Below, piece after piece: positions 1 through 36,153 of a DNA stretch of 36,153 nucleotides. This DNA is from a virus. The stretch lies in IMG/VR virus record IMGVR_UViG_3300027810_000028, positions 1 through 36,153 of that record; one strand, written 5' to 3'. The notes beneath the pieces are model-generated. The model was not told the origin of the DNA, searched no databases, and worked only from the letters and a program-made list of their open reading frames with translations. Within the stretch, counting starts at the first letter, position 1, and the number at the start of each line of letters is the position of its first letter. Made by a program: the position numbers and the translations under genes.

Positions 1-219
1 TTCTAGCAAAGTCTGCCACATAATATCTCTGGCCTGACCCTGCGTAGGAGCAACGTAAAAAACCTTACCATCCTTTTCAGAAAGTGCGTTTACTATTAGC
101 ATCCAAGCAGCTAACCTACTCTTACCAGTTCGTCTACCAGCAGCTACTACCTTAAACCTAGCATTACTTTCGTATACCTTTTCTTGCCAAGGTAATAGCT
201 TTATGTTTAACTCAGCCAT
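1..219 (-). CDS. terL: Terminase large subunit, N-terminal part (gene split by window ends)
   Basis: This is the N-terminal 73 codons of the DNA-packaging ATPase/nuclease. The reading frame is open to base 1 and continues in the same frame at 36099, because bases 1-54 repeat 36100-36153. The start ATG at 217-219 overlaps the lysozyme stop by 8 nt. A Walker A motif (AAGRRTGKS, about residues 26-34) binds ATP, followed by the VAPTQGQARDIMW segment typical of phage large terminases. Joined to the part at the right end, the full protein is about 419 aa, a normal length for the ATPase plus nuclease domains. The split comes from where the circle was opened, not from a broken gene. Confidence 0.93.
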   Translation of the reverse strand, partial: MAELNIKLLPWQEKVYESNARFKVVAAGRRTGKSRLAAWMLIVNALSEKDGKVFYVAPTQGQARDIMWQTLLE

Positions 220-12300: not shown

Positions 12301-12572
12301 TGGAAGACGATGATAATAGTAAGTTTAAGTTTAGTTATGTGCCAGCAGAGATAGACGAGTACGGTAACTTTGTTGTCTTTGGTTACCCCTTGATTGGAGG
12401 TTGGTTACCCAAGCTGGCTTTTGAAAGTGAAGTAATGTATGATGATGTGTTTGACCCAAAAGAAAAAAAGAAGTATAGTATATTTATAGCCGAGTGGTTC
12501 TTAGTAGGATACATGGTTGTATATAAAATAGAAACCACCAGTATGTTTGAGGAAAACAAAGATGATAACTGA
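12300..12572 (+). CDS. Unknown acidic protein, 90 aa
   Basis: The ATG overlaps the DUF3310 stop (TAATG), so the two are coupled. The product is acidic, with aromatic-rich strands (FVVFGYPLIGGWLPKLAF) and a moderately hydrophobic segment (IAEWFLVGYMVVY) that may be a strand pair or a weak membrane segment. The end overlaps nrdB. No family recognised. Confidence 0.68.
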   Translation: MEDDDNSKFKFSYVPAEIDEYGNFVVFGYPLIGGWLPKLAFESEVMYDDVFDPKEKKKYSIFIAEWFLVGYMVVYKIETTSMFEENKDDN

Positions 12573-13521
12573 CACACAAGAAGCATACATAATAGAGTAC
12601 CCACAAGCAGAGGTATTCGCAGAACAGCAGGAAGATATTTTCTGGACTGCTAAAGAGATAGGTATGGAAAAAGACCTACACGATTTACACAACAGCCTTA
12701 CAGAAGCAGAGACACATGGAGTAGTCACAGTACTTAAGTTGTTTACTAAGTACGAGGTACACGTAGGCAATGAGTACTGGTTAGACTTTGTACGTAGGAA
12801 GTTCAAACGTCCTGAGATACAACGCATGGCATCTTTGTTCGGCATGTTTGAATTGAATGTCCATGCCCCATTTTATAATAAGATAAACGAGGTTCTTAAC
12901 CTTAACACAGAAGAGTTCTATAACAGTTACATAGAAGACAAGACTTTGAAAGGGCGTATGGATTGGTTAGACAGTCAGTTCGATGGTGATGATACACTGT
13001 ACTCTCTGGCTGTTGGTTCTATTGTAGAGGGTGCTGTACTCTATTCTAACTTTGCGTTCTTAAAACACTTCCAAGCGGAAGGTAAGAACAAGTTGGTTAA
13101 CTTAACAGCAGGTATTAACTTCTCTGTACGTGACGAGAACTTACATAGTCTTGCTGGAGCATGGTTGTTTAACACCTTAAAGGAAGAGTCAGAGTTAGAT
13201 ATAATAGCTACAGATAGGTTAACTCAAAAAGTTAACAAGACTTGCAATAAGATACTAGAGCATGAGAGTAGAATTATTGACATGATATTTGAGAAGGGTG
13301 ACATACGTGGTATAACAGAACACCAGATGAAACAGTTTATTAAAGCAAGATTAAACTTATGTCTTAGTCAAATAAACCTTGAACCTTTGTATGAAGTAGA
13401 GTATGATCCTATTAGTAAGTGGTTTTATAAGAATATAAATAGCGGTCAGTTACATGACTTCTTCCACAAGCAAGGTAATAATTATAATAGGGATCATAGC
13501 GAGGCTAAGTTTGTATGGTAA
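12562..13521 (+). CDS. nrdB: Ribonucleotide reductase small (beta) subunit, class I
   Basis: This 319 aa protein houses the metal/radical cofactor that lets NrdA turn ribonucleotides into deoxyribonucleotides. Aligned by eye with E. coli NrdB, ligands are E65 (in KYEVHVG, E. coli D84), E97 and H101 (FELNVH), E156 (VEGAVLYSNF), and E192/H195 (RDENLH); Y105 in HAPFY falls at the radical tyrosine. Two oddities: glutamate replaces the first aspartate, and E97-H101 is spaced ExxxH, not ExxH. The start at 12562 is preferred to 12547. It precedes nrdA, the reverse of the usual order, and overlaps it by 7 nt. Confidence 0.92.
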   Translation: MITDTQEAYIIEYPQAEVFAEQQEDIFWTAKEIGMEKDLHDLHNSLTEAETHGVVTVLKLFTKYEVHVGNEYWLDFVRRKFKRPEIQRMASLFGMFELNVHAPFYNKINEVLNLNTEEFYNSYIEDKTLKGRMDWLDSQFDGDDTLYSLAVGSIVEGAVLYSNFAFLKHFQAEGKNKLVNLTAGINFSVRDENLHSLAGAWLFNTLKEESELDIIATDRLTQKVNKTCNKILEHESRIIDMIFEKGDIRGITEHQMKQFIKARLNLCLSQINLEPLYEVEYDPISKWFYKNINSGQLHDFFHKQGNNYNRDHSEAKFVW

Positions 13522-15221
13522 ATAGTAACAAGTCAATATATCAAGACCTAAGTGACGAAAGAAAACAATTACAAAGCGTAGGTAAACTACCACAATGGTA
13601 CTCAACTTCCGCATGGCAGTTACTAAAAGAAAAGTATACAACGGATAAGTACCCAGACTTATACTCAATCTATAAAAGAATAAGTAACGCAGCATCAAAG
13701 CACATGGATGATGAAGAACACTGGGACAAAGTATTCTTTAACTTATTATGGTCAGGGCATTTAGCATGTAGTACACCAGTGTTAGCTAACATGGGTACAA
13801 CAAGAGGATGTCCTGTTAGTTGTTCAGGTAATTATGTAGGAGATAGTGTATATGAATTTTACGAGTCACAAAAAGAAACAGCGATACTTACAAAAAATGG
13901 CTTCGGAACTTCATCTTATCTTGGAGCAGTCAGAGGAAGAGGAGATTCTATCAGCTCGGGGGGTAATGCTTCTGGGGTACTGCCAGTACTTAGAGGCTAT
14001 ATCCAACTTAGCAGGGACGTTAGCCAAGGAAATACAAGACGAGGTGCGTGGGCTGGGTATATCGAAATAGACCATCCAGACTTCTGGGAAGTTGTAGCTT
14101 ACATATTAAACAATCCTGATGATTGTAATGTAGGTTGGTTAGTATCAGATAAGTTTATACAAGAGCTAGAGAATGGCAACGAAGAGTCTATCAATCGTTA
14201 CCAACGTGCATTAAAAACTAAGATGGTAACTGGTAAAGGTTACTTTGTATTTATTGATAGAGTTAACAGGGCAAACCCAGAGTCATATAAAAAACATGGC
14301 TTAACTGTTAAGGCTTCTAACTTATGTACTGAGATAACATTACCCTCTGACGAGTTCCATACCTTTACTTGTGTGTTAAGCTCTATGAACTTAGCTAAGT
14401 ATGATGAATGGAAAGATACTGATGCAGTACAAAACGCTATAATATTCCTTGACTGTGTAGCAGAAGAGTTTATACAGATGGGTAGGGGTATCAAAGGCCT
14501 AGAGAAAGCAGTACGATTCACTGAGTCAGGCAGAGCATTAGGACTAGGTACGCTAGGCTTTCACAGTTACCTACAGCAGAACATGATTGACATAGAGTCT
14601 ACAGAAGCTCACATGTTAAACAACACTATGTTCAAGGGCATACAGAAGGAGGCTAAGAAAGGCTCTCAGTGGCTTGCTAAGGTTAAAGGAGAACCTAAGT
14701 GGTGCAAGGGGGAAGGGGTACGCAACACGCACCTTCTAGCCATAGCTCCTAACAGTTCAAGTGCTTTGATATGTGGTGGTGTTAGTCAAGGTATTGAACC
14801 TGTATACAAGAACGTGTTTGTGCAGGGTACACCAGCAGGAGAGATTAACCGTATCAACCCTGTACTAGTAGACTTAATGAAAGTTAAAGGTGTATTTAAC
14901 CATGATAACATTGATGCTATTATAAAAGATAACGGTTCAGTACAGTTAGTAGATTGGCTAACTGATGAAGAGAAGGTAGTATTTAAGACTGCCTTTGAGA
15001 TTAACCAAGAGGTATTACTTAGGTTAGCTAGTGTTAGACAAAGACATATCTGTCAAGCACAATCTTTAAACCTGTTCTTTCCTGCTGAAGTATCAGAGGA
15101 AGAAGTTAGCAGGATACATAAGATAGCTTTCAAAGATAAGTATATTAAGTCCTTGTACTATGTACGTAGTGAAGCAGGGGTTCGTGGTTCAACAGGAGAA
15201 TGTGTTGCTTGTGAGGGTTAA
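13515..15221 (+). CDS. nrdA: Ribonucleotide reductase large (alpha) subunit, class I
   Basis: This 568 aa catalytic subunit lacks the N-terminal ATP-cone, so overall activity control by ATP/dATP is probably lost. Active-site residues are present: C103 in SCSGNY, N-L-C271-x-E273 in SNLCTEI, C286 in TCVLSSMN, the LYY tyrosine pair near the end, and a C-terminal C563-x-x-C566 that passes reducing power from thioredoxin or glutaredoxin. E. coli NrdA is about 760 aa; the difference is mainly the missing cone. No thioredoxin gene is seen, so the host must supply the reductant. It overlaps nrdB, and supplies dNTPs for phage replication. Confidence 0.95.
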   Translation: MVNSNKSIYQDLSDERKQLQSVGKLPQWYSTSAWQLLKEKYTTDKYPDLYSIYKRISNAASKHMDDEEHWDKVFFNLLWSGHLACSTPVLANMGTTRGCPVSCSGNYVGDSVYEFYESQKETAILTKNGFGTSSYLGAVRGRGDSISSGGNASGVLPVLRGYIQLSRDVSQGNTRRGAWAGYIEIDHPDFWEVVAYILNNPDDCNVGWLVSDKFIQELENGNEESINRYQRALKTKMVTGKGYFVFIDRVNRANPESYKKHGLTVKASNLCTEITLPSDEFHTFTCVLSSMNLAKYDEWKDTDAVQNAIIFLDCVAEEFIQMGRGIKGLEKAVRFTESGRALGLGTLGFHSYLQQNMIDIESTEAHMLNNTMFKGIQKEAKKGSQWLAKVKGEPKWCKGEGVRNTHLLAIAPNSSSALICGGVSQGIEPVYKNVFVQGTPAGEINRINPVLVDLMKVKGVFNHDNIDAIIKDNGSVQLVDWLTDEEKVVFKTAFEINQEVLLRLASVRQRHICQAQSLNLFFPAEVSEEEVSRIHKIAFKDKYIKSLYYVRSEAGVRGSTGECVACEG

Positions 15222-15223
15222 GT

Positions 15224-15382
15224 ATGTGTGATTATGATATGAAGGTAATACAAGAGTGGATAGATAAAGCAAGTAGTTTAGATAGTGCTTACGAAAGGAT
15301 AGCAATATCACAAGGGTTGGTTACTAGCCCATCCTTTAAAGAAAACTATATCAATCCTATATTTAAATACGAAGAAGACTGA
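15224..15382 (+). CDS. Small protein after nrdA, 52 aa
   Basis: This is the last gene of the plus-strand operon. GAGGG precedes the ATG, which lies 2 nt after the nrdA stop. The product begins MCDYDMKVIQEWIDKASSLD and is acidic and probably helical. The rightward terminator follows within 10 nt. No family recognised. Confidence 0.7.
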   Translation: MCDYDMKVIQEWIDKASSLDSAYERIAISQGLVTSPSFKENYINPIFKYEED

Positions 15383-15388
15383 CAAAAG

Positions 15389-15423
15389 AAAGCCCCAAGG
15401 AATTTTCCAAGGGGCTTTTTTTT
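15389..15423. terminator. Terminator between the converging operons
   Basis: AAAGCCCC (15389-15396) pairs with GGGGCTTT (15411-15418), with GGAA/TTCC pairing further in, followed by a T-run to 15423: a good intrinsic terminator for the plus strand. The other side is A-rich, so it may also stop leftward transcription leaving alkB at 15438. Confidence 0.9.
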
Positions 15424-15437
15424 ATCTTAAAGTTTTA

Positions 15438-16622
15438 CTATCCTAGATAGGGGCGTAAGACTTTTCCTCTTCTGGCATAGCATAACCAAGACTGCTCATT
15501 AATTTTAGCAGCAATCTCTAACTCGCCTTCTGTAGCAAAGTCTCTATCCCATGTTGCTAATTTTTTCTTCATCATCATATGGTATAGAGGTGGAATTAAC
15601 GCTACAGTAAACTCTGTAAAGTAACCCCAACGAGCGTTAGGTGAACCTACTTCATCTAATTCCCAGAAGTGAGTCTCGCCTCTGTCATGGTGGTCACCTT
15701 GTCTACCTATCTCTATAAAGAACCAGCTTGTAAACAAGTTGCTGTTATCCCATGAGTGGCGGTAGTCAATCGGTTGACCCTTCTCTCTAATAAGACCGTA
15801 GTGTTCCATGTAGTTTAACGCTTCTAACTCGAAGTTAGATATTGTTAATACTAAGAACATAACAGCTATACCTACAGCACCACCAGCGTATGTAAACAAT
15901 AGCATTGTTGGTAGTGTCATTGCATACCCACGTATCCAACGGTTCTCTAAAGATATAAAGTTCTTGCCTAGTTTAGCCAAGCGAGTCTTTTCCATTCTGA
16001 ACAAGAATTTTGATTGACCCATGTGTGACAACCAGAAATGTCTGTAGATAGAACGACCGCGTGGTGAAGTAGCAGGATCATCTTCATGTGCTAATTCTAG
16101 ATGGTGGTTGTATACGTGAGCATACGCAAAGTGTGAAGAACCACTTAAACCCATCATCAAACGAGAAATAACAAAGCTGAAACCTTTAGTATGAGATAGC
16201 TCATGTCCGTAGATAATACCGATACCTGCAAAGATACCTGTAGACACTGCGGCTACTGCTAATTCAAGCCCTGTAATACCCATTGTTACTGGTACAATAC
16301 CATACATAGTAGTTGTGATTGCAGTACCATCTACATACTGCATTACACGCCATGCTAGAGCAACTTGTAACAATGCGAATACTGGTAGCATCACGTACAT
16401 TACTGTGTTCTGTAATGTGGGCATGCCCATTGTATCTCCATTATCATCGAAGCCAGCACCCGCTGGATGGAAGGGCATAGTAAGTGTGTCAAGAATAATA
16501 CCTACACCAAATAGTGCAACACCTACCCATACAAACATGCCACCCATTATTATACTTGCTAGCGTTACCAAAATTAAAGTTGGTGCTAACCAGTACCGAA
16601 TGTTGATCAATAATTTTTTCAT
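15438..16622 (-). CDS. alkB: AlkB-type alkane 1-monooxygenase-like membrane di-iron oxygenase
   Basis: This 394 aa integral membrane protein (P. putida AlkB: 401 aa) should oxidise a methyl or methylene C-H bond, typically alkane to 1-alkanol, at the inner membrane. Several hydrophobic segments surround the iron-binding boxes: HELSH (H140, H144), AHVYNHH (H169, H173, H174) followed by DPATS, NYMEHYGL (H274) and RQGDHH (H311, H312). Aligned by eye with P. putida AlkB, eight of nine conserved histidines are kept; the ninth (H312) is Q308, and the glutamate of EHxxxHH is A168. GAGG precedes the ATG, 17 nt after the previous gene, so it is the last gene of the late operon. No rubredoxin or reductase is present. 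A fatty-acyl hydroxylase or desaturase-like role is possible. Confidence 0.88.
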   Translation of the reverse strand: MKKLLINIRYWLAPTLILVTLASIIMGGMFVWVGVALFGVGIILDTLTMPFHPAGAGFDDNGDTMGMPTLQNTVMYVMLPVFALLQVALAWRVMQYVDGTAITTTMYGIVPVTMGITGLELAVAAVSTGIFAGIGIIYGHELSHTKGFSFVISRLMMGLSGSSHFAYAHVYNHHLELAHEDDPATSPRGRSIYRHFWLSHMGQSKFLFRMEKTRLAKLGKNFISLENRWIRGYAMTLPTMLLFTYAGGAVGIAVMFLVLTISNFELEALNYMEHYGLIREKGQPIDYRHSWDNSNLFTSWFFIEIGRQGDHHDRGETHFWELDEVGSPNARWGYFTEFTVALIPPLYHMMMKKKLATWDRDFATEGELEIAAKINEQSWLCYARRGKVLRPYLG

Positions 16623-16639: not shown

Positions 16640-16735
16640 TTATTTACGTTTCTTTTTCTTAACTGTCATAGCTTTCTTAGCTGCTTTCTTACCCTTCAAT
16701 GTATAAGGATAAGTCTTTCCATTTACCTTTGGCAT
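16640..16735 (-). CDS. Tiny lysine-rich protein, 31 aa
   Basis: A perfect ribosome site (AAAGGAGG) stands a few bases before the ATG. The product is MPKVNGKTYPYTLKG followed by a lysine-rich tail (KKAAKKAMTVKKKKRK). Small basic proteins of this kind recur next to late genes of marine phages and may bind DNA or coat the virion interior; the function is unknown. It lies between the DUF6321-like gene and alkB. Confidence 0.75.
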   Translation of the reverse strand: MPKVNGKTYPYTLKGKKAAKKAMTVKKKKRK

Positions 16736-16750
16736 CTTAAACCTCCTTTA

Positions 16751-17035
16751 CTACCATTTGACCTTTGAAGACCAGTAAGCCGCACTCATCTTCCCCCTTG
16801 CAATGTTCTTAGCATGTCTAGCCTTGAACGATTTCTTTCTAGCTTTTTCTGCTGGACTAGTTGGATTTTTTCCAGCACCTCTAACACCTGCCTGACCAAA
16901 TCTTATAGTCTTAGTTTTGTCTCCCACCTTGGCAACAACTACGTGGCTTTTAGTTGCATGGTTAGGCGTACCCTTGGGGATGTTATAACCAGATACTCCA
17001 GCGTTAGTTAACTTACTATCTTTTTTAGTAGCCAT
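16751..17035 (-). CDS. Small basic phage protein, DUF6321-like
   Basis: This 94 aa basic protein has a recognisable pattern: TIRFGQAGVRG in the middle and ARKKSFKARHAKNI...AAYWSSKVKW at the C-terminus, as in the DUF6321 family of marine phages. Function unknown. AGGAG precedes the ATG, and it starts directly after the large ejection protein gene, so it is a late protein and possibly packaged in the virion. Confidence 0.8.
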   Translation of the reverse strand: MATKKDSKLTNAGVSGYNIPKGTPNHATKSHVVVAKVGDKTKTIRFGQAGVRGAGKNPTSPAEKARKKSFKARHAKNIARGKMSAAYWSSKVKW

Positions 17036-17037
17036 GT

Positions 17038-20000
17038 TTATCTCCTCTTGTACTCTCTTACAACTGAACTTTTCAAGGCTCTAGCTTTCCTAAGTCCATC
17101 GTATTCTTCTGGGTACATTCTTAAATAAGCAAGTTGATCTTCAAAATTTAATCGTTTAATAAGAAGTTCTCTTTCACTCAAGTCCATACGCTTTTCTTTT
17201 ATACGACTTATAAATTCTCTTTTTAATTGTTTAGCAAGTCTAGGGTCATTTTTAAATATCCTAGATATTTCAGCGGTTATAAACTTCCTACTTTTATCTG
17301 TAAACATTTCATCATAGTTTTCAGCTACAGATTTTTTAGGATCTGTTTCCATTGGAAGGTATGTGTTCTTATCGACAGAAAGAATATCTTTTGTTTTAAC
17401 ACCAGCATCTTTCATTATTTTGAAAGCACTTTCTTGTGATTCACCAAGAGTAATAAGACTTTGATAATGAGTTCTTACTTTACTAAGGTTATCCTTTCTA
17501 ATCCTATTAGCTTCTGCATAAGCAGATTGCATTTGTTGTGGTGTAGCATCCTCTGATTCTACTAAGCGATTATATTTTGACTGTACTTGTTGAGCGTTAC
17601 TAGCACTTTCTCTAATAGCAAAGGTAGCACTTCTTTCAACATCAATTTTATTAAACCTTAGACCAGCTTGCCTAAGTACAAGATCCCCCATTTCATAATC
17701 AGGTTCTTTAGCATCCATAGTGTTAATAACTTTATCAAGCTCCCTAGCAAATCCCGGTTTAAAAGATTCAGAAATGAAAAAGTTAAGTTTATCTTTGGCT
17801 ATTAGAATACCTTTGTCTTCATTAGAAATATTTGCACCAGAAGTAGTTCTACCACTTAACGCGCCTAATGCAGCCCGAATAGGAAATGCCCCTTCTCCTA
17901 CAAAGTTATCTGACAATACAGAAGTAAGATTTTCTAAAGGTTTATCACTTACAGCAGCGTTAAAAGCCTCTGCTGCCATTGCATGTGGAGATATGTAAGA
18001 CATGTTTAAATAAGACACGTTACCTTTAGAGTCTTTATTAAAGATTAAAGATTTATTTTTATCCCAATGAGGTACAAAAGTTTCTCTATATGCTTTCTCT
18101 TCTGCCTCAGTAACTCCTTCACTTTCATTCCAGTTTCTTCTAATAGCTTCACCACCAGCAATAATACCTACTGTTGCTGCTAATCTAGTAGCACCTTCAA
18201 CTTGCATTTTACTTTTATTAAAACCTTTTGCTACATCTATTCCAATGTCTTTACCAAACGTACCTCTTACCATTTGTGTAGCAAACTTTGCATTGTTGTA
18301 CACATTACGCATAAGTTCTGCTGTAAAAGATACAAACTGTGGCATCATACCGTAACGTGAAGCTGAACGTAGTGAGGTATTTAATTTATCATAGTTTTGA
18401 AAAGTGTCGTTTGTAAGTCTAGCTGCTGCTAATTTTAAGTCATCACCTTTTAAATGAGGAAAGACCGAGGAAAGAGTGTCTTGATTTGTTCTCCATACTG
18501 CGTACCTTGCTGCTGTATCAGTAACAGAATAAGCCTTACCAAAACCCCCAAAAACTTTCTTTACTTTATTACTCAAGTAACCATCATTTAATGTATTACT
18601 TCTAATATCAGAAGCTATTATGTTAGCATTAGATATACCATACTGAGCCATTTCTTCGACATCATCTAAGAATTGCTTTCTTCCTTTAGCAGTACCACCA
18701 CTAATATATCTACCAACATTATCAAACTGACCAGCAGCTAGTTTTGCACCTTTAAAATACGAGCGTTTAAAAGGATTAATACCACTACCTAGCATAGTAA
18801 TTACACCACCAAAATAGTTTACTGCATAAGACGGTGGGTTTAATACTACCTTAACAGCCTTTGATGCACCAATAGAAGCATCTAAAGCATCAAGAAGAGT
18901 AGTTACAAAACCATTACTTTTACCAGATTTTGTTTCATCATTTAGTTTTTCTAAAGCAAACTGAACTTCATTAGGTACATAAACATCAGGTGTTTCTATG
19001 TTATCTAGGTCTAACTTTTGATAAGACATGCTTTGAGGTATAGGGCTGTTTGAACCTTGTGGTACAGTAATAGCTAGACCTGCTTTTTGAAGACCATTAA
19101 GAGTTTGTATATCTTTTTGCGTTCTATAAACATTAGAACTAAGTTTAGTTAATGTACCTCTAACTCTTTCACCAGCATCAACTATCTCACCTAGGTATTT
19201 TCTTTGTGCAACACCTACATCTTTCATAGATTTAGATAAAGCAGAACCTGCTGATCCAGTAGCCCCTGCTCTATATTTAGCTGTTGTTGATCTATAACCT
19301 TCTAGTTTTTCTACTGCTAATTTTTTAGCTTCTATCTGTATTTTTTTATCTTTTAGTTTTTGCTTTGCAATAGAAAGTTTCTTTGGTTTACTACCACCCG
19401 CAAAACGACCTTTATCTCTTTTAACCTCAGCTTTTTGTGCCTTTCTAACAAGACTTGTTCTATAAGATTCTGTTAATTCTGCAAGAGCAGCAGGATATAA
19501 TCTGTTATCAAACTCAAAAGAGTCATCAGTAAAAGCTTTATACTCTCTAGTTACATAACCTTTATTTTTAGATTTTTTAATCAACCTTAGTAGTTTAACT
19601 TGATCAGCACGCTTCATACTTTTAAAGGCTTTAGTCTCTAACTGCTCTATTAATTTTTCAGTTAGTTCTCCTTTTGTTTTATTAAAAGCATTTAGATCAC
19701 CTTCTAAAGCTGTACCCTTAATACGAGGTGACAGTTCTCCCCCATCTAAAAAAGTATTAATATCTTTTTCTATAGAAGGATCTTTCTTTACTGCTGCTTG
19801 TATGCTACTAGCTAATCTTCCACCTTTTTCTTGTACTGATCTTAGACCAGCAGTGTTGTAGAATTTAGCTTCGTTTGCTTCTTGTCCTATTATTTTACTA
19901 GGACGAAAAGTTCTTACTGTCTTTTGCCACCATGATACATTATTACTATTAGCTTGTTCAAGAGTTTCTATTGCTTGTCTACTAGCAGTTTTCTGTACAG

Positions 20001-20733
20001 CAGCTTGATAAATTTTAGTAGCTTCTTCTTCTGACATTGCTGTACCTTCTCGTACTTCTCTTACAGCATCTTCTTGTGTCATTCTAGCAAGTGATTCGTC
20101 TACTTCATCAACAGATTTACCAGTTTGTTTGCTTATAGCTTTAGTTAGATTAGGAGCAGCAGCACCTAGCAAACCACCAAAGGTAGCACCACCTAGTCCA
20201 TACAAAGCCATGTCTAAAGGATCAGCCATTTCACCATTATCAACAGCAGATATTATGTTAGCTTCTACAACACCAATAGCAGCACCACGTTTAGCTTCTT
20301 TAGCAGCACTACGTTTTATTAGCTCACCAGTAATTTTAGTAGAACCTGTAATTGGTTTAGCAGCACCACCAAACGGTATTAAGTTTGTGAGTCCTGCTGC
20401 AACCATTCTTCCGTAAGAAAGGTCTTCTCTTTTTTCTATTTGTTGGGATGTGTAACTACCTAATGCGCCACCAGCAAAGTTACCTATAATATATCCCGGC
20501 AAACCTGCTCTTGCTACAAACATAGAAGCTGCACCAGCTATACTAATCTCAGCACTAATACCTAAAGCTATATCTCCACCTGAAGGTGAAGTAGTATCCG
20601 ATGGAGTATCAGTGCTAGCTGTATCTTCTTCTACCTCACCATCAAAACGAGCATAGTTATCCGTACCCTCTTCTGCTTTCCATAGCTGCCCGTCATCATC
20701 ACGTATTAAAGTACTACTTATTCTTTCTGCCAT
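17038..20733 (-). CDS. Large internal virion (DNA ejection) protein, 1231 aa
   Basis: This is the longest gene. Size and position after the tail genes fit the largest core/ejection protein of podoviruses (T7 gp16 is 1318 aa), which forms a channel for DNA entry through the cell envelope. The N-terminus is acidic; about residues 55-250 hold glycine/alanine-rich hydrophobic stretches (for example GGALG, GLGGATFGGLLGAAAP) suited to membrane insertion. The middle is lysine-rich and helical (about 450-550), and the C-terminal third is helical and charged. I see no lysozyme or transglycosylase motif, so wall-degrading activity is not supported. AGGAAA precedes the ATG. Confidence 0.75.
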   Translation of the reverse strand: MAERISSTLIRDDDGQLWKAEEGTDNYARFDGEVEEDTASTDTPSDTTSPSGGDIALGISAEISIAGAASMFVARAGLPGYIIGNFAGGALGSYTSQQIEKREDLSYGRMVAAGLTNLIPFGGAAKPITGSTKITGELIKRSAAKEAKRGAAIGVVEANIISAVDNGEMADPLDMALYGLGGATFGGLLGAAAPNLTKAISKQTGKSVDEVDESLARMTQEDAVREVREGTAMSEEEATKIYQAAVQKTASRQAIETLEQANSNNVSWWQKTVRTFRPSKIIGQEANEAKFYNTAGLRSVQEKGGRLASSIQAAVKKDPSIEKDINTFLDGGELSPRIKGTALEGDLNAFNKTKGELTEKLIEQLETKAFKSMKRADQVKLLRLIKKSKNKGYVTREYKAFTDDSFEFDNRLYPAALAELTESYRTSLVRKAQKAEVKRDKGRFAGGSKPKKLSIAKQKLKDKKIQIEAKKLAVEKLEGYRSTTAKYRAGATGSAGSALSKSMKDVGVAQRKYLGEIVDAGERVRGTLTKLSSNVYRTQKDIQTLNGLQKAGLAITVPQGSNSPIPQSMSYQKLDLDNIETPDVYVPNEVQFALEKLNDETKSGKSNGFVTTLLDALDASIGASKAVKVVLNPPSYAVNYFGGVITMLGSGINPFKRSYFKGAKLAAGQFDNVGRYISGGTAKGRKQFLDDVEEMAQYGISNANIIASDIRSNTLNDGYLSNKVKKVFGGFGKAYSVTDTAARYAVWRTNQDTLSSVFPHLKGDDLKLAAARLTNDTFQNYDKLNTSLRSASRYGMMPQFVSFTAELMRNVYNNAKFATQMVRGTFGKDIGIDVAKGFNKSKMQVEGATRLAATVGIIAGGEAIRRNWNESEGVTEAEEKAYRETFVPHWDKNKSLIFNKDSKGNVSYLNMSYISPHAMAAEAFNAAVSDKPLENLTSVLSDNFVGEGAFPIRAALGALSGRTTSGANISNEDKGILIAKDKLNFFISESFKPGFARELDKVINTMDAKEPDYEMGDLVLRQAGLRFNKIDVERSATFAIRESASNAQQVQSKYNRLVESEDATPQQMQSAYAEANRIRKDNLSKVRTHYQSLITLGESQESAFKIMKDAGVKTKDILSVDKNTYLPMETDPKKSVAENYDEMFTDKSRKFITAEISRIFKNDPRLAKQLKREFISRIKEKRMDLSERELLIKRLNFEDQLAYLRMYPEEYDGLRKARALKSSVVREYKRR

Positions 20734-32949: not shown

Positions 32950-33090
32950 TTATTTTTTATTTATTTTCTTAGCTGGTGGAGTACACTTACAACTTGGTTC
33001 TCCTTCTAGTTTAACAAGTCTTTTTTCTATGCTTGCTAAGATAGTGTTTATCTCTATTAGGACACCATCTAACTCTTGCTTACTAACCAT
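32950..33090 (-). CDS. Small protein after portal, 46 aa
   Basis: The ATG overlaps the portal stop by 8 nt, so it is coupled to portal translation. The product begins MVSKQELDGVLIEINTILAS, forms a probable short coiled coil, then has a CKC motif and a lysine-rich end. No family recognised. The stop lies at the edge of the downstream promoter. Confidence 0.65.
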   Translation of the reverse strand: MVSKQELDGVLIEINTILASIEKRLVKLEGEPSCKCTPPAKKINKK

Positions 33091-35056
33091 TTTTATTTCC
33101 CATTTGTAGTTTAACAATATTTTCTTTAGTGTCTAACTCTTGTTGTTTTAGGCTTAACTCTGCCATAGCAAGAGCTTGTTGGAACTCGTCAGCGGGTAAA
33201 GTCTTAGCAATAGCAGCTATACGATCTGTTTCTTCTGCAACAGGAAGTAACTGAGTTTCAACTTGGTTCTGCATTACACGACTTTGTATCTCAGCAGCTT
33301 CTAACTTCATTTTTTCTAGGTTTACTTTAGCCATTTCTAACTCAAACTGTTTACGCAGTTGTTGTTCTTGCATTGCAGCTTGTTGTTCTTGTGGGCTAGG
33401 TGGTTGGTTAGCTTGTTTAATAGTAGATATAATTTCTTCTCTACGAGATAAGTTCATAGACTCTACAATAGACTCAACAAGTATACTGTACATAGGACTT
33501 TCTGCTGGCATTGTTTGTAGAAGCTGTACTAGTTGTGTTACTTCATACTCACGAGCAATGATACCTAAAGAACTAGAAGCAACAAACTTGTGGTCTTGAG
33601 CTTTGTATAGTTCAGGATCAAACTGCATGTACCTGTGCATTGCTTTCTCAACAAAAGGTATTAAGAAAGTATCTTGGAAGTTTAACAATGTACGCTTGTG
33701 TCGTTTAATAATAGCACCAAGAGACATAGACATGCCAGCAGCAGTACCATCAGGACTCATAGGACTTGTATTATCTACAGCACCAGTAGCTTGCTGCACC
33801 ATTGTTTGTAATTGAGTACCTTGAGAGAATGTAATATTATCTACAGCACCAAACTTAAACGGTTGTAGGATCTCAGAAGGGTTACCATTAGTTAGTAAAG
33901 TTTTTCCGGGAGCTATTGATAGTTGTGAACCACGAGGCATACGAGAAGCATCTACTGCCATCATAGGATGTACTGTTAGTGCTAAAGCATCTATACGTGC
34001 GCGTAGCTCCGTGTCTAATGCTTTCTGACTGTTATACCCCTTCTCACATATTCCACGACCCCAGAAGCGACTAGGGACGTTATCCCATTTAAAGGCTACA
34101 ATAGGTCTGTCTTCCATCATATACGGATTTGCTACAACTTTTAGTAGAGTTGTTTCATTAGCAATTATAACTATAGCTTCTACATAAGAAGAATCTGTAT
34201 CTTCTTTACTACCGTAAGGATTAAGAGCAACAGCAATTTCATCTTCTTGTAAGTCTTCGTCTTCTGCATCTTCAAATAAAGTTCTAGGAACTAAGCCATA
34301 GTATTTAGTTAGTCGAACTCTATCATCTGTTTCGTATGTCATTTCTTGGTCAGGCTCTAACTCTGAATCTGACTCTACAGTACCAACCTCAACATCACGA
34401 TAAATACCTTTTTCAATATCCATTTCTACTTGGTGTTTAGGTACGTACATATCTACTGCACAACCTAGAGCTTCTTCTATGCTAGTAGCTAGAGGATCAA
34501 TAAGAAAGTTTTGTGGCATGATAGGACGTAGCTTAACTAAAAATCTATTTCTTTCTAGTACACCACCAGCTTGCATACCTTCAGGTGTTTGTTGTGTGTG
34601 TGGGATATGTTCTTTAGTTTCTTCTAAGTATACTTCACCAATACCTGTACCAAACACAGCAGCATTAAGCAAACACTCTGATATAGAAGAACGTGCTTTA
34701 CCAAACTGCATGTCTTCATCAAGTTGTTTTCTGGTAAACTCTATATCAGCAGAACCATTTTGGTCTTGAACATCATCTCTAATGTCAAACCAACGCCCTC
34801 TACCGAAAGTAGCTTCCTCTACTTCTGCTACACTAGACTCTACTGCTTGTTGTAGTGCAGGTGTAATGATGCGACTACGTTCAGTATCTCGCATACTATC
34901 TTCTTTAGCCCAGATACCACGCCATAGCCTGTAGTATTCATCATGGCTAGTACGATAGTTATTATTGTAGTTGTCTCTCCAACCATCACACTTATCTATA
35001 ACCCATTGCTCTAGCTTTTGTCCAGAGTATATATTATCGTTTGTTTCATTTTCCAT
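33083..35056 (-). CDS. Portal (head-tail connector) protein
   Basis: This 657 aa protein follows terL and has portal features: an N-terminal WRDNYNNNYRTSHDEYYRLWRG segment, RSRIITPALQQAVESSVAEVEEA, RFWGRGICEKGYNSQKALD and a long C-terminal coiled-coil rich in Q and E (about 550-650). It forms the ring at one capsid vertex through which DNA enters and leaves. Its size is within the larger podovirus portals. It starts 2 nt after the terL stop. Confidence 0.9.
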   Translation of the reverse strand: MENETNDNIYSGQKLEQWVIDKCDGWRDNYNNNYRTSHDEYYRLWRGIWAKEDSMRDTERSRIITPALQQAVESSVAEVEEATFGRGRWFDIRDDVQDQNGSADIEFTRKQLDEDMQFGKARSSISECLLNAAVFGTGIGEVYLEETKEHIPHTQQTPEGMQAGGVLERNRFLVKLRPIMPQNFLIDPLATSIEEALGCAVDMYVPKHQVEMDIEKGIYRDVEVGTVESDSELEPDQEMTYETDDRVRLTKYYGLVPRTLFEDAEDEDLQEDEIAVALNPYGSKEDTDSSYVEAIVIIANETTLLKVVANPYMMEDRPIVAFKWDNVPSRFWGRGICEKGYNSQKALDTELRARIDALALTVHPMMAVDASRMPRGSQLSIAPGKTLLTNGNPSEILQPFKFGAVDNITFSQGTQLQTMVQQATGAVDNTSPMSPDGTAAGMSMSLGAIIKRHKRTLLNFQDTFLIPFVEKAMHRYMQFDPELYKAQDHKFVASSSLGIIAREYEVTQLVQLLQTMPAESPMYSILVESIVESMNLSRREEIISTIKQANQPPSPQEQQAAMQEQQLRKQFELEMAKVNLEKMKLEAAEIQSRVMQNQVETQLLPVAEETDRIAAIAKTLPADEFQQALAMAELSLKQQELDTKENIVKLQMGNKNG

Positions 35057-35058
35057 TA

Positions 35059-36153
35059 TTAGTAACCTGCTATTGGATCAATAAATGTAAACTCGTTATC
35101 ATCTTCAAAATCAAAACTATAAGCTACTATAGCTAGTTGATCTATGTATGCCAACGAATCAATTAAGTCATCATGTACTAAAGGGTTAGGGAACTGGAAC
35201 AATTCATCTAAGAACTCTGCGTTCCAATCTCCTACCCCTAGTGTTATCACACCCTGCTCGAATCTGCCCTGTAGTCCCCAGATTACCCTGTCTATCTTAC
35301 GTTTGTTACCGTGAGTTAACTCTTCTAAACGAAAAAACTTCTGTCTTGACTTCTGTAAGTCCATCAGGTACGGAAGCACCGCGTTTTTCAACGCGCCCTT
35401 TTCTATACCCACTGCAATAGGCTCATACTTAGCAACCACGTTAAAAATCTTCTGTGCAGTTTTCTTTATATCCCACCTACCGTAGACAATATCCTCTACG
35501 AACCACCCATCTTCATTAACTTTTACTACACTAATAGCAGTCTGATCTAATTTTTTACTTTTAGATGTAGTTGCTTTGGCAACATCTGCAAAACCTGCTA
35601 AATCTATGGCGATATAGTACTCACCTATAGCTGGTGGTTCATCTGCAAACTTAACCCACTCTTCTTTAAAGATTTCACTACCCATAGCCTCAAAAGAAGC
35701 CATAAATTCTTGACGAAACGAATAAGTAGACATAGATTTCTTTGCAATTTCTATTTCTTCTGGGTCTAACAGAGGGTTATCGTAGCTTGTAAAGTGCCAA
35801 CCCTCGTATGTTTCATCATCACCTAGCTCTGCGTACTTATATAACTCATAGAAATGATTTCTTCCCATTGGAGTACCAATGAATAGTGTCTCACCCTTGT
35901 TATCTGCTAGAGCTGGACGTAAAATCTGTTCAAATACAGTAGGCTTCATGTCAGCATACTCATCAAGAACTAAAAATTTTAGACTAACACCCCTCATTGT
36001 CTCAGGCCTGTCTGCACCTTTTAGAGATATAACAGCACCGTTAACTAAAGTTATCTGTAAGTTGTTTATATGTGCAGATTTGATAACAGGACTTCCTAGT
36101 TCTAGCAAAGTCTGCCACATAATATCTCTGGCCTGACCCTGTGTAGGAGCAAC
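35059..36153 (-). CDS. terL: Terminase large subunit, C-terminal part (open at the window end)
   Basis: This part holds Walker B (KFLVLDEYADM), a TPMGRNHFYELY coupling segment, and the nuclease domain: YIAIDLAGFAD with a metal-binding Asp, later GIEKGALKNAV and HDDLIDSLAYI near the end. The frame stays open to 36153; the last 54 bases repeat bases 1-54, so the gene continues at 219-1. The complete protein is about 419 aa. It cuts and pumps DNA into the capsid through the portal encoded next to it. Confidence 0.94.
   Translation of the reverse strand, partial: VAPTQGQARDIMWQTLLELGSPVIKSAHINNLQITLVNGAVISLKGADRPETMRGVSLKFLVLDEYADMKPTVFEQILRPALADNKGETLFIGTPMGRNHFYELYKYAELGDDETYEGWHFTSYDNPLLDPEEIEIAKKSMSTYSFRQEFMASFEAMGSEIFKEEWVKFADEPPAIGEYYIAIDLAGFADVAKATTSKSKKLDQTAISVVKVNEDGWFVEDIVYGRWDIKKTAQKIFNVVAKYEPIAVGIEKGALKNAVLPYLMDLQKSRQKFFRLEELTHGNKRKIDRVIWGLQGRFEQGVITLGVGDWNAEFLDELFQFPNPLVHDDLIDSLAYIDQLAIVAYSFDFEDDNEFTFIDPIAGY
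36100..36153. repeat. 54-bp terminal overlap with bases 1-54
   Basis: The last 54 bases match the first 54 except at 36142 (T) versus 43 (C), a synonymous change in a Thr codon of terL (ACA versus ACG). The repeat lies inside a coding gene, which fits a circular assembly overlap better than a physical terminal repeat. Confidence 0.93.

Follow-up and report, generated by a model that had tools for sequence, protein, structure and literature searches.

A marine podovirus encodes a predicted AlkB-fold membrane oxygenase from a clade with one iron-ligand histidine replaced

The DNA analyzed here (the window, 36,153 bases) is the entire IMG/VR record IMGVR_UViG_3300027810_000028. The phage is a lytic-type marine podovirus, in which early genes (primase-helicase, family A polymerase, 5'-3' exonuclease, NrdB and NrdA) were read rightward and late genes (terminase, portal and others) leftward (Table 1). 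Its nearest cultured relatives were distant: the portal protein was 22-27% identical to that of HMO-2011-type phages, NrdA reached up to 61% identity to cultured relatives, and g23 was 60-72% identical to proteins from Zobellviridae and elsewhere. When both contig ends were joined, a 441-codon open frame was obtained in terL, and an uninterrupted TerL of the same kind was present in a relative (L074). As the ends join in frame within this gene, the record most likely represents the whole genome, opened inside terL; the closing rests on the reading frame, because no exact terminal overlap of at least 10 bases was found between the contig ends.

Table 1. Features of the oxygenase locus and of the contig ends in the window
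Feature	Position	Strand	Remarks
nrdB, ribonucleotide reductase small subunit	12547..13521	+	
nrdA, ribonucleotide reductase large subunit	13515..15221	+	left border of the slot
Intrinsic terminator, convergent, dividing the nrdA-side early unit from the late unit that the oxygenase gene closes	15382..15424	.	from hairpin energy
AlkB-fold membrane oxygenase (RQxDHH clade; fold predicted)	15438..16622	-	394 aa; ATG at 16622, stop at 15438
Small basic ORF, 32 aa, MPKVNGKTYPYT...	16641..16739	-	between the oxygenase and g23; read from sequence
g23, 94 aa, phrog_7595	16751..17035	-	conserved in Zobellviridae (cobaviruses)
g24, 1231-aa late protein	17038..20733	-	right border of the slot
Portal protein	33083..35056	-	
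terL, terminase large subunit, C-terminal part	35059..36120	-	in-frame continuation over the contig ends into 1-219 (-)

The oxygenase gene ended the leftward late unit and faced the rightward nrdB-nrdA pair, in keeping with the sequence-only reading, which had put it with a replication module on one side and virion genes on the other and had given its coordinates and length exactly, leaving the minus strand unstated. An AGAGG resembling a ribosome-binding site lay upstream of the ATG. The hairpin separating the two units had a folding energy of -21.5 kcal/mol (z -5.2) on the plus strand, where it carried a T run, and of -20.1 kcal/mol (z -5.0) on the minus strand. At the other border of the slot, g24 had no Pfam match, and its identity ranged from 33 to 89% among otherwise close phages.

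Besides the window, eight contigs from eight different metagenomes (L001-L003 and L005-L009) held the oxygenase in the same slot beside nrdA. Four gene-less relatives (L276, L318, L327 and L341, NrdA 71-85% identical) had neither the oxygenase nor g23, and their nrdA stop abutted the convergent stop of g24. Values of dN/dS were 0.01-0.22 among phage copies of the oxygenase and 0.04 between the copy in L009 and that of Methylophaga thiooxydans, indicating that the gene has been kept functional. Assembly chimerism and host contamination are ruled out by the eight other contigs, the gene-less relatives and the closing of the genome, and purifying selection likewise argues that the gene is no artefact. 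A decayed gene or a non-catalytic product would fit the missing metal ligand described below, and IMG/VR records are themselves computed predictions, but with an intact reading frame, an arrangement common to nine contigs, a genome that closes, low dN/dS and a replacement (Gln) that is fixed in bacteria also, an artefactual or non-catalytic origin is very improbable and has been largely refuted. The term auxiliary metabolic gene, as used in the sequence-only reading, appears fair, since the gene looks host-derived and is maintained under purifying selection in a real phage genome; its metabolic effect during infection is presumed. In another podovirus group, related to the first (L073, L074 and L077), a 62% identical oxygenase lay near terL rather than after nrdA, probably as an independent acquisition in this sister group.

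The protein possessed six long hydrophobic helices, and its reading frame contained all of the boxes reported earlier: HELSH, AHVYNHH with DPATS, NYMEHYGL and RQGDHH. A profile search, which had been put forward as a check of the AlkB assignment, matched Pfam FA_desaturase (PF00487) with 93.4 bits against a gathering cut-off of 29.7 (E=2.5e-26), and together with the HEXXH, HxxxHH and HH boxes this places the protein in the AlkB/XylM His-box superfamily. Profile searches with PHROG and NCBIfam returned no model matches, and the sole significant sequence matches of phmmer in the PDB were the AlkB chains 8sbb (1.9e-28) and 8f6t (1.7e-26). An AlphaFold2 model built from 53 family sequences (pLDDT 81, pTM 0.86) was aligned by VIA-align to FtAlkB with Z 30.1 for 8f6t (354 residues, rmsd 3.3) and Z 27.6 for 8sbb, and the same two entries alone were significant in Foldseek (E 1.4e-10 and 2e-9). 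Stearoyl-CoA desaturase aligned with Z 3.6, too weak for use, and a Foldseek search of BFVD yielded nothing significant among viruses, the best match (E 0.016) being a giant-virus desaturase. The phage oxygenase is therefore modeled, at the level of fold, as an AlkB-type protein whose six transmembrane helices would carry a His-box domain on the cytosolic side.

In FtAlkB of Fontimonas the iron is held by nine histidines and Glu271, with His311 binding Fe2 (PMC10113152), and these nine histidines have been called invariant across species and indispensable (PMC10110569). The phage oxygenase retained eight of the nine (H140, H144, H169, H173, H174, H274, H311 and H312) plus E273, and Q308 sits at the position of FtAlkB His311 (chain numbering in the ligand alignment is +3). 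Though the boxes had been listed correctly, RQGDHH had been given without comment, when the AlkB counterpart is RHSDHH and one iron-ligand histidine is thus gone. The change is a property of the whole family: every one of the 159 full-length members whose sequence could be read had RQ[A/G/C]DHH as its third box (the 160th has an X there), and the His311 equivalent was Gln in 65 of 65 aligned family members and His in 6/6 AlkB, 3/3 XylM and 2/2 other relatives. Residues E304, R314, E316, W320 and E321 were invariant in the RQxDHH family, and H318 nearly so; judging from this conservation, one of them could complete the iron site. Because one iron ligand is replaced, an RQxDHH protein need not be a hydroxylase, or have oxygenase activity at all. 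The likeness to FtAlkB extends beyond fold and ligands to length, His-box order, an equivalent of Glu271 and NYxEHYGL, but identity is only ~22-25% over the fold. The AlkB sequences used for comparison were those of Fontimonas, Rhodococcus, Acinetobacter, Marinobacter and Phaeobacter.

A quick tree, in which reference branches were long, set all references (AlkB, XylM, and the Hydrocarboniclastica and Polaromonas proteins) across a 99-support branch from the RQxDHH family, which was ~30% identical to both AlkB and XylM. The comparison with bacterial and viral homologues suggested earlier thus leaves the phage protein outside canonical AlkB and inside the AlkB/XylM superfamily, where it belongs to a distinct clade. 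What stands of the name AlkB-type alkane monooxygenase is a full-length homologue of AlkB-fold membrane oxygenases; against the remainder are the separate clade, the lost histidine and bacterial neighbors that are mostly of 2Fe-2S/XylA type rather than rubredoxin. Sponge-associated Gammaproteobacteria encoded, within a few kb of their oxygenase gene, proteins of ~820 aa with a more AlkB-like RHADHH domain (L096 9430-11880, L097 12985-15441 and L102 12163-14661).

Bacterial neighborhoods differed between groups. In Methylophaga and relatives the genes after the oxygenase encoded a truncated globin, a GST, a BenC/MmoC-type Fer2-FAD-NAD reductase and a FadL/TodX protein; a lone Fer2 ferredoxin adjoined it in SAR86; and MerR and FabA genes lay divergently beside it in Thiothrix-like SAGs. 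Among 51 bacterial loci with flanks, we counted GST in 21, ferredoxin or reductase in 17, MerR in 13, FabA in 11, globin in 10 and FadL/TodX in 9. Rubredoxin and aldehyde dehydrogenase genes are adjacent to AlkB in the reference loci, and neither was among the conserved annotated neighbors of RQxDHH genes; a rubredoxin-like motif, sought by regular expression only, occurred in 9 of 80 bacterial loci versus 3 of 4 AlkB references. Four host genomes (G001-G004) did contain rubredoxin away from the oxygenase locus. On the phage side, no Fer2 family member was found in 12 phage records other than the window (11 of them carriers of the oxygenase), and no rubredoxin in the window and three other carrier phages. 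The neighboring g23 was considered as an electron partner and is not a likely one, because this lysine-rich protein has no cysteines and occurs in Zobellviridae that lack the oxygenase.

These neighborhoods bring to mind XylM of pWW0, which the phage protein resembles in sequence (27.5% identity), in an AHxxxHH box and in having an adjoining gene for a XylA-type 2Fe-2S reductase in bacteria. The protein could then be a XylM-like hydroxylase of some other exogenous hydrophobic compound (an aromatic, terpene or alkene) that is taken up through FadL/TodX and oxidized with electrons from the XylA-type reductase, with GSTs dealing with reactive products and the phage sustaining the activity. The bacterial set of oxygenase, globin, GST, Fer2-FAD-NAD reductase and FadL/TodX would suit this reading, a 2Fe-2S protein adjoins the XylM references too, and the Glu at the E304 position is common to XylM. 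Yet XylM has NHINHH, NYFQHYGL and His rather than Gln at the replaced ligand, the tree separates the clades, other RQxDHH clades have FabA and MerR neighbors instead, and a benefit to the phage is not evident. Box and tree keep the protein out of the NHINHH clade although XylA-type reductases adjoin its bacterial relatives, and we regard a XylM-like role as rather improbable.

SoxB was present in 5 of 8 carrier genomes tested, that of the closest relative included, and methanol dehydrogenase was above the cut-off in 2 of 7 (in both cases mostly MAGs or SAGs of unstated completeness). Carriers, which include SAR86 and Woeseiaceae, are mostly thiosulfate-oxidizing, methylotrophic and other marine Gammaproteobacteria and not known alkane degraders. 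A working terminal hydroxylase of alkanes or long-chain hydrocarbons, acting for example on seawater hydrocarbons with Gln308 or a nearby conserved residue completing the iron site, would agree with the AlkB fold (Z 30), the eight ligands and Glu273 retained, the FadL/TodX outer-membrane proteins in 9 of the 51 bacterial neighborhoods and the presence of SAR86 and Woeseiaceae. We nevertheless consider it unlikely: the clade lies outside AlkB, every member has a replacement at a ligand described as invariant and indispensable, the rubredoxin and aldehyde dehydrogenase of AlkB references are missing from the conserved annotated neighbors, and the carriers are largely thiosulfate oxidizers and methylotrophs.

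The window copy and that of L001 were sister to a copy from a gammaproteobacterial MAG of Arctic origin (L147; second copy L082), with 91-94% identity, and a putative host can be assigned from such closest homologues. An obligate methylotroph was rejected as host, as FRAM18_bin228, which has the closest bacterial copies, possessed SoxB and had no methanol dehydrogenase above the cut-off; the host is thus not simply Methylophaga. A link to phage sulfur metabolism was also dismissed, with no DsrC in 49 carrier contigs. The copies L082 and L147 (CAJIZI010000001.1) were ~77 kb apart in one bacterial MAG, each 93-94% identical to the phage protein and in differing neighborhoods.

At least 184 IMG/VR stretches matched our search pattern, all 184 of them encoding a relative of the oxygenase; viral counts and shared-gene groups refer to the 80 loci kept. 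Large phages with tail fibers, NrdA and a T4/cyanophage-type family formed a shared-gene group of 45, and a group of 20 had a T4-type Gp23 capsid; the rest comprised two podovirus groups, L010 with another capsid type and a few singletons. NrdA was the only one of the commonest viral-neighbor families listed that was also found in bacterial loci. Lipase_3 (20 of the 80 viral loci) and PRPP synthetase (19 of the 80) were confined to phage lineages other than that of the window. On the quick tree described above, which has some long reference branches, the virus label needed 9 changes, at least 7 of them forced by starred branches. The AU test rejected a single viral clade (p 7e-6), and the oxygenases that share the podovirus slot did not form one clade either (p 2.6e-7). 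Viral copies come from several phage lineages, and by these quick trees they were exchanged repeatedly with Gammaproteobacteria. A 319-aa protein with neither a Pfam nor a PHROG family (L024 8599-9558 (+), and relatives) adjoined the oxygenase in ~27 viral contigs, often together with PRPP synthetase and a class 3 lipase.

We rank modification of lipids or acyl chains first, and give about an even chance to the view that the oxygenase is a late-expressed, host-derived auxiliary enzyme that oxidizes (hydroxylates or desaturates) a long aliphatic chain, most likely a host fatty-acyl chain or membrane lipid, with electrons from host 2Fe-2S proteins. The enzyme would be made late in infection and inserted into the host inner membrane. 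There it would use O2 on the aliphatic chain, its electrons supplied by the host through a 2Fe-2S ferredoxin or a XylA-type reductase; no such partner was recognized in the phage. Oxidation of acyl chains or lipids might then keep or change the properties of the host membrane while virions are made. The substrate preference leans on the FabA neighbors in bacteria and the Lipase_3 neighbors in 20 phage loci; FadL/TodX and GST neighbors lean toward external hydrophobic compounds, and in some bacteria they would suit a pathway that takes up and oxidizes such compounds no less than one that modifies lipids. An exogenous alkane is a less likely substrate, since most carriers oxidize sulfur or are methylotrophs and few of the usual AlkB partners are encoded nearby. 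As a member of a separate family without one normally essential iron-holding histidine, the protein probably alters host fatty chains, rather than being a proven oil-degrading enzyme.

Cyanophages encode lipid desaturases. Fatty acid desaturases encoded by phages from Arctic brine (vFAD) have been described as well (PMC7300359), and the oxygenase is comparable by enzyme type to both, as desaturase-type enzymes in marine phages that are thought to modify host lipids. Our literature search for the RQxDHH clade in phages found no paper describing it. More tentatively, and with clearly less than even confidence, the clade may form a class of AlkB-fold diiron oxygenases that has yet to be described, whose iron site is altered and whose chemistry or substrate differs (e.g. 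membrane acyl chains being desaturated or hydroxylated in-chain), and may rank among the metabolic genes that have been recruited anew more often by phages infecting marine sulfur-oxidizing and methylotrophic Gammaproteobacteria. If so, phages of these bacteria would control a membrane oxygenase for which the literature searched contained no assay, and phage-host exchange could be traced at one genomic slot. Viral 'alkB' calls made by PF00487 or BLAST can fall in a clade whose iron site has changed, and claims of virus-aided oil degradation that rest on such calls therefore need checking. Hydrocarbon-degradation genes have been claimed in aquatic phages by Ru et al. 2023, as cited for virus-encoded genes of this kind in a passage of the review PMC13343209. 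An alkane 1-monooxygenase is also annotated in a phage record, the 'alkB1' of Acinetobacter phage MD-2021a (CAKLQH020000011.1), but unlike the oxygenase described here it is a canonical AlkB with RHSDHH, flanked by ppiD and acyl-CoA dehydrogenase genes, and the record looks like host bacterial chromosome.
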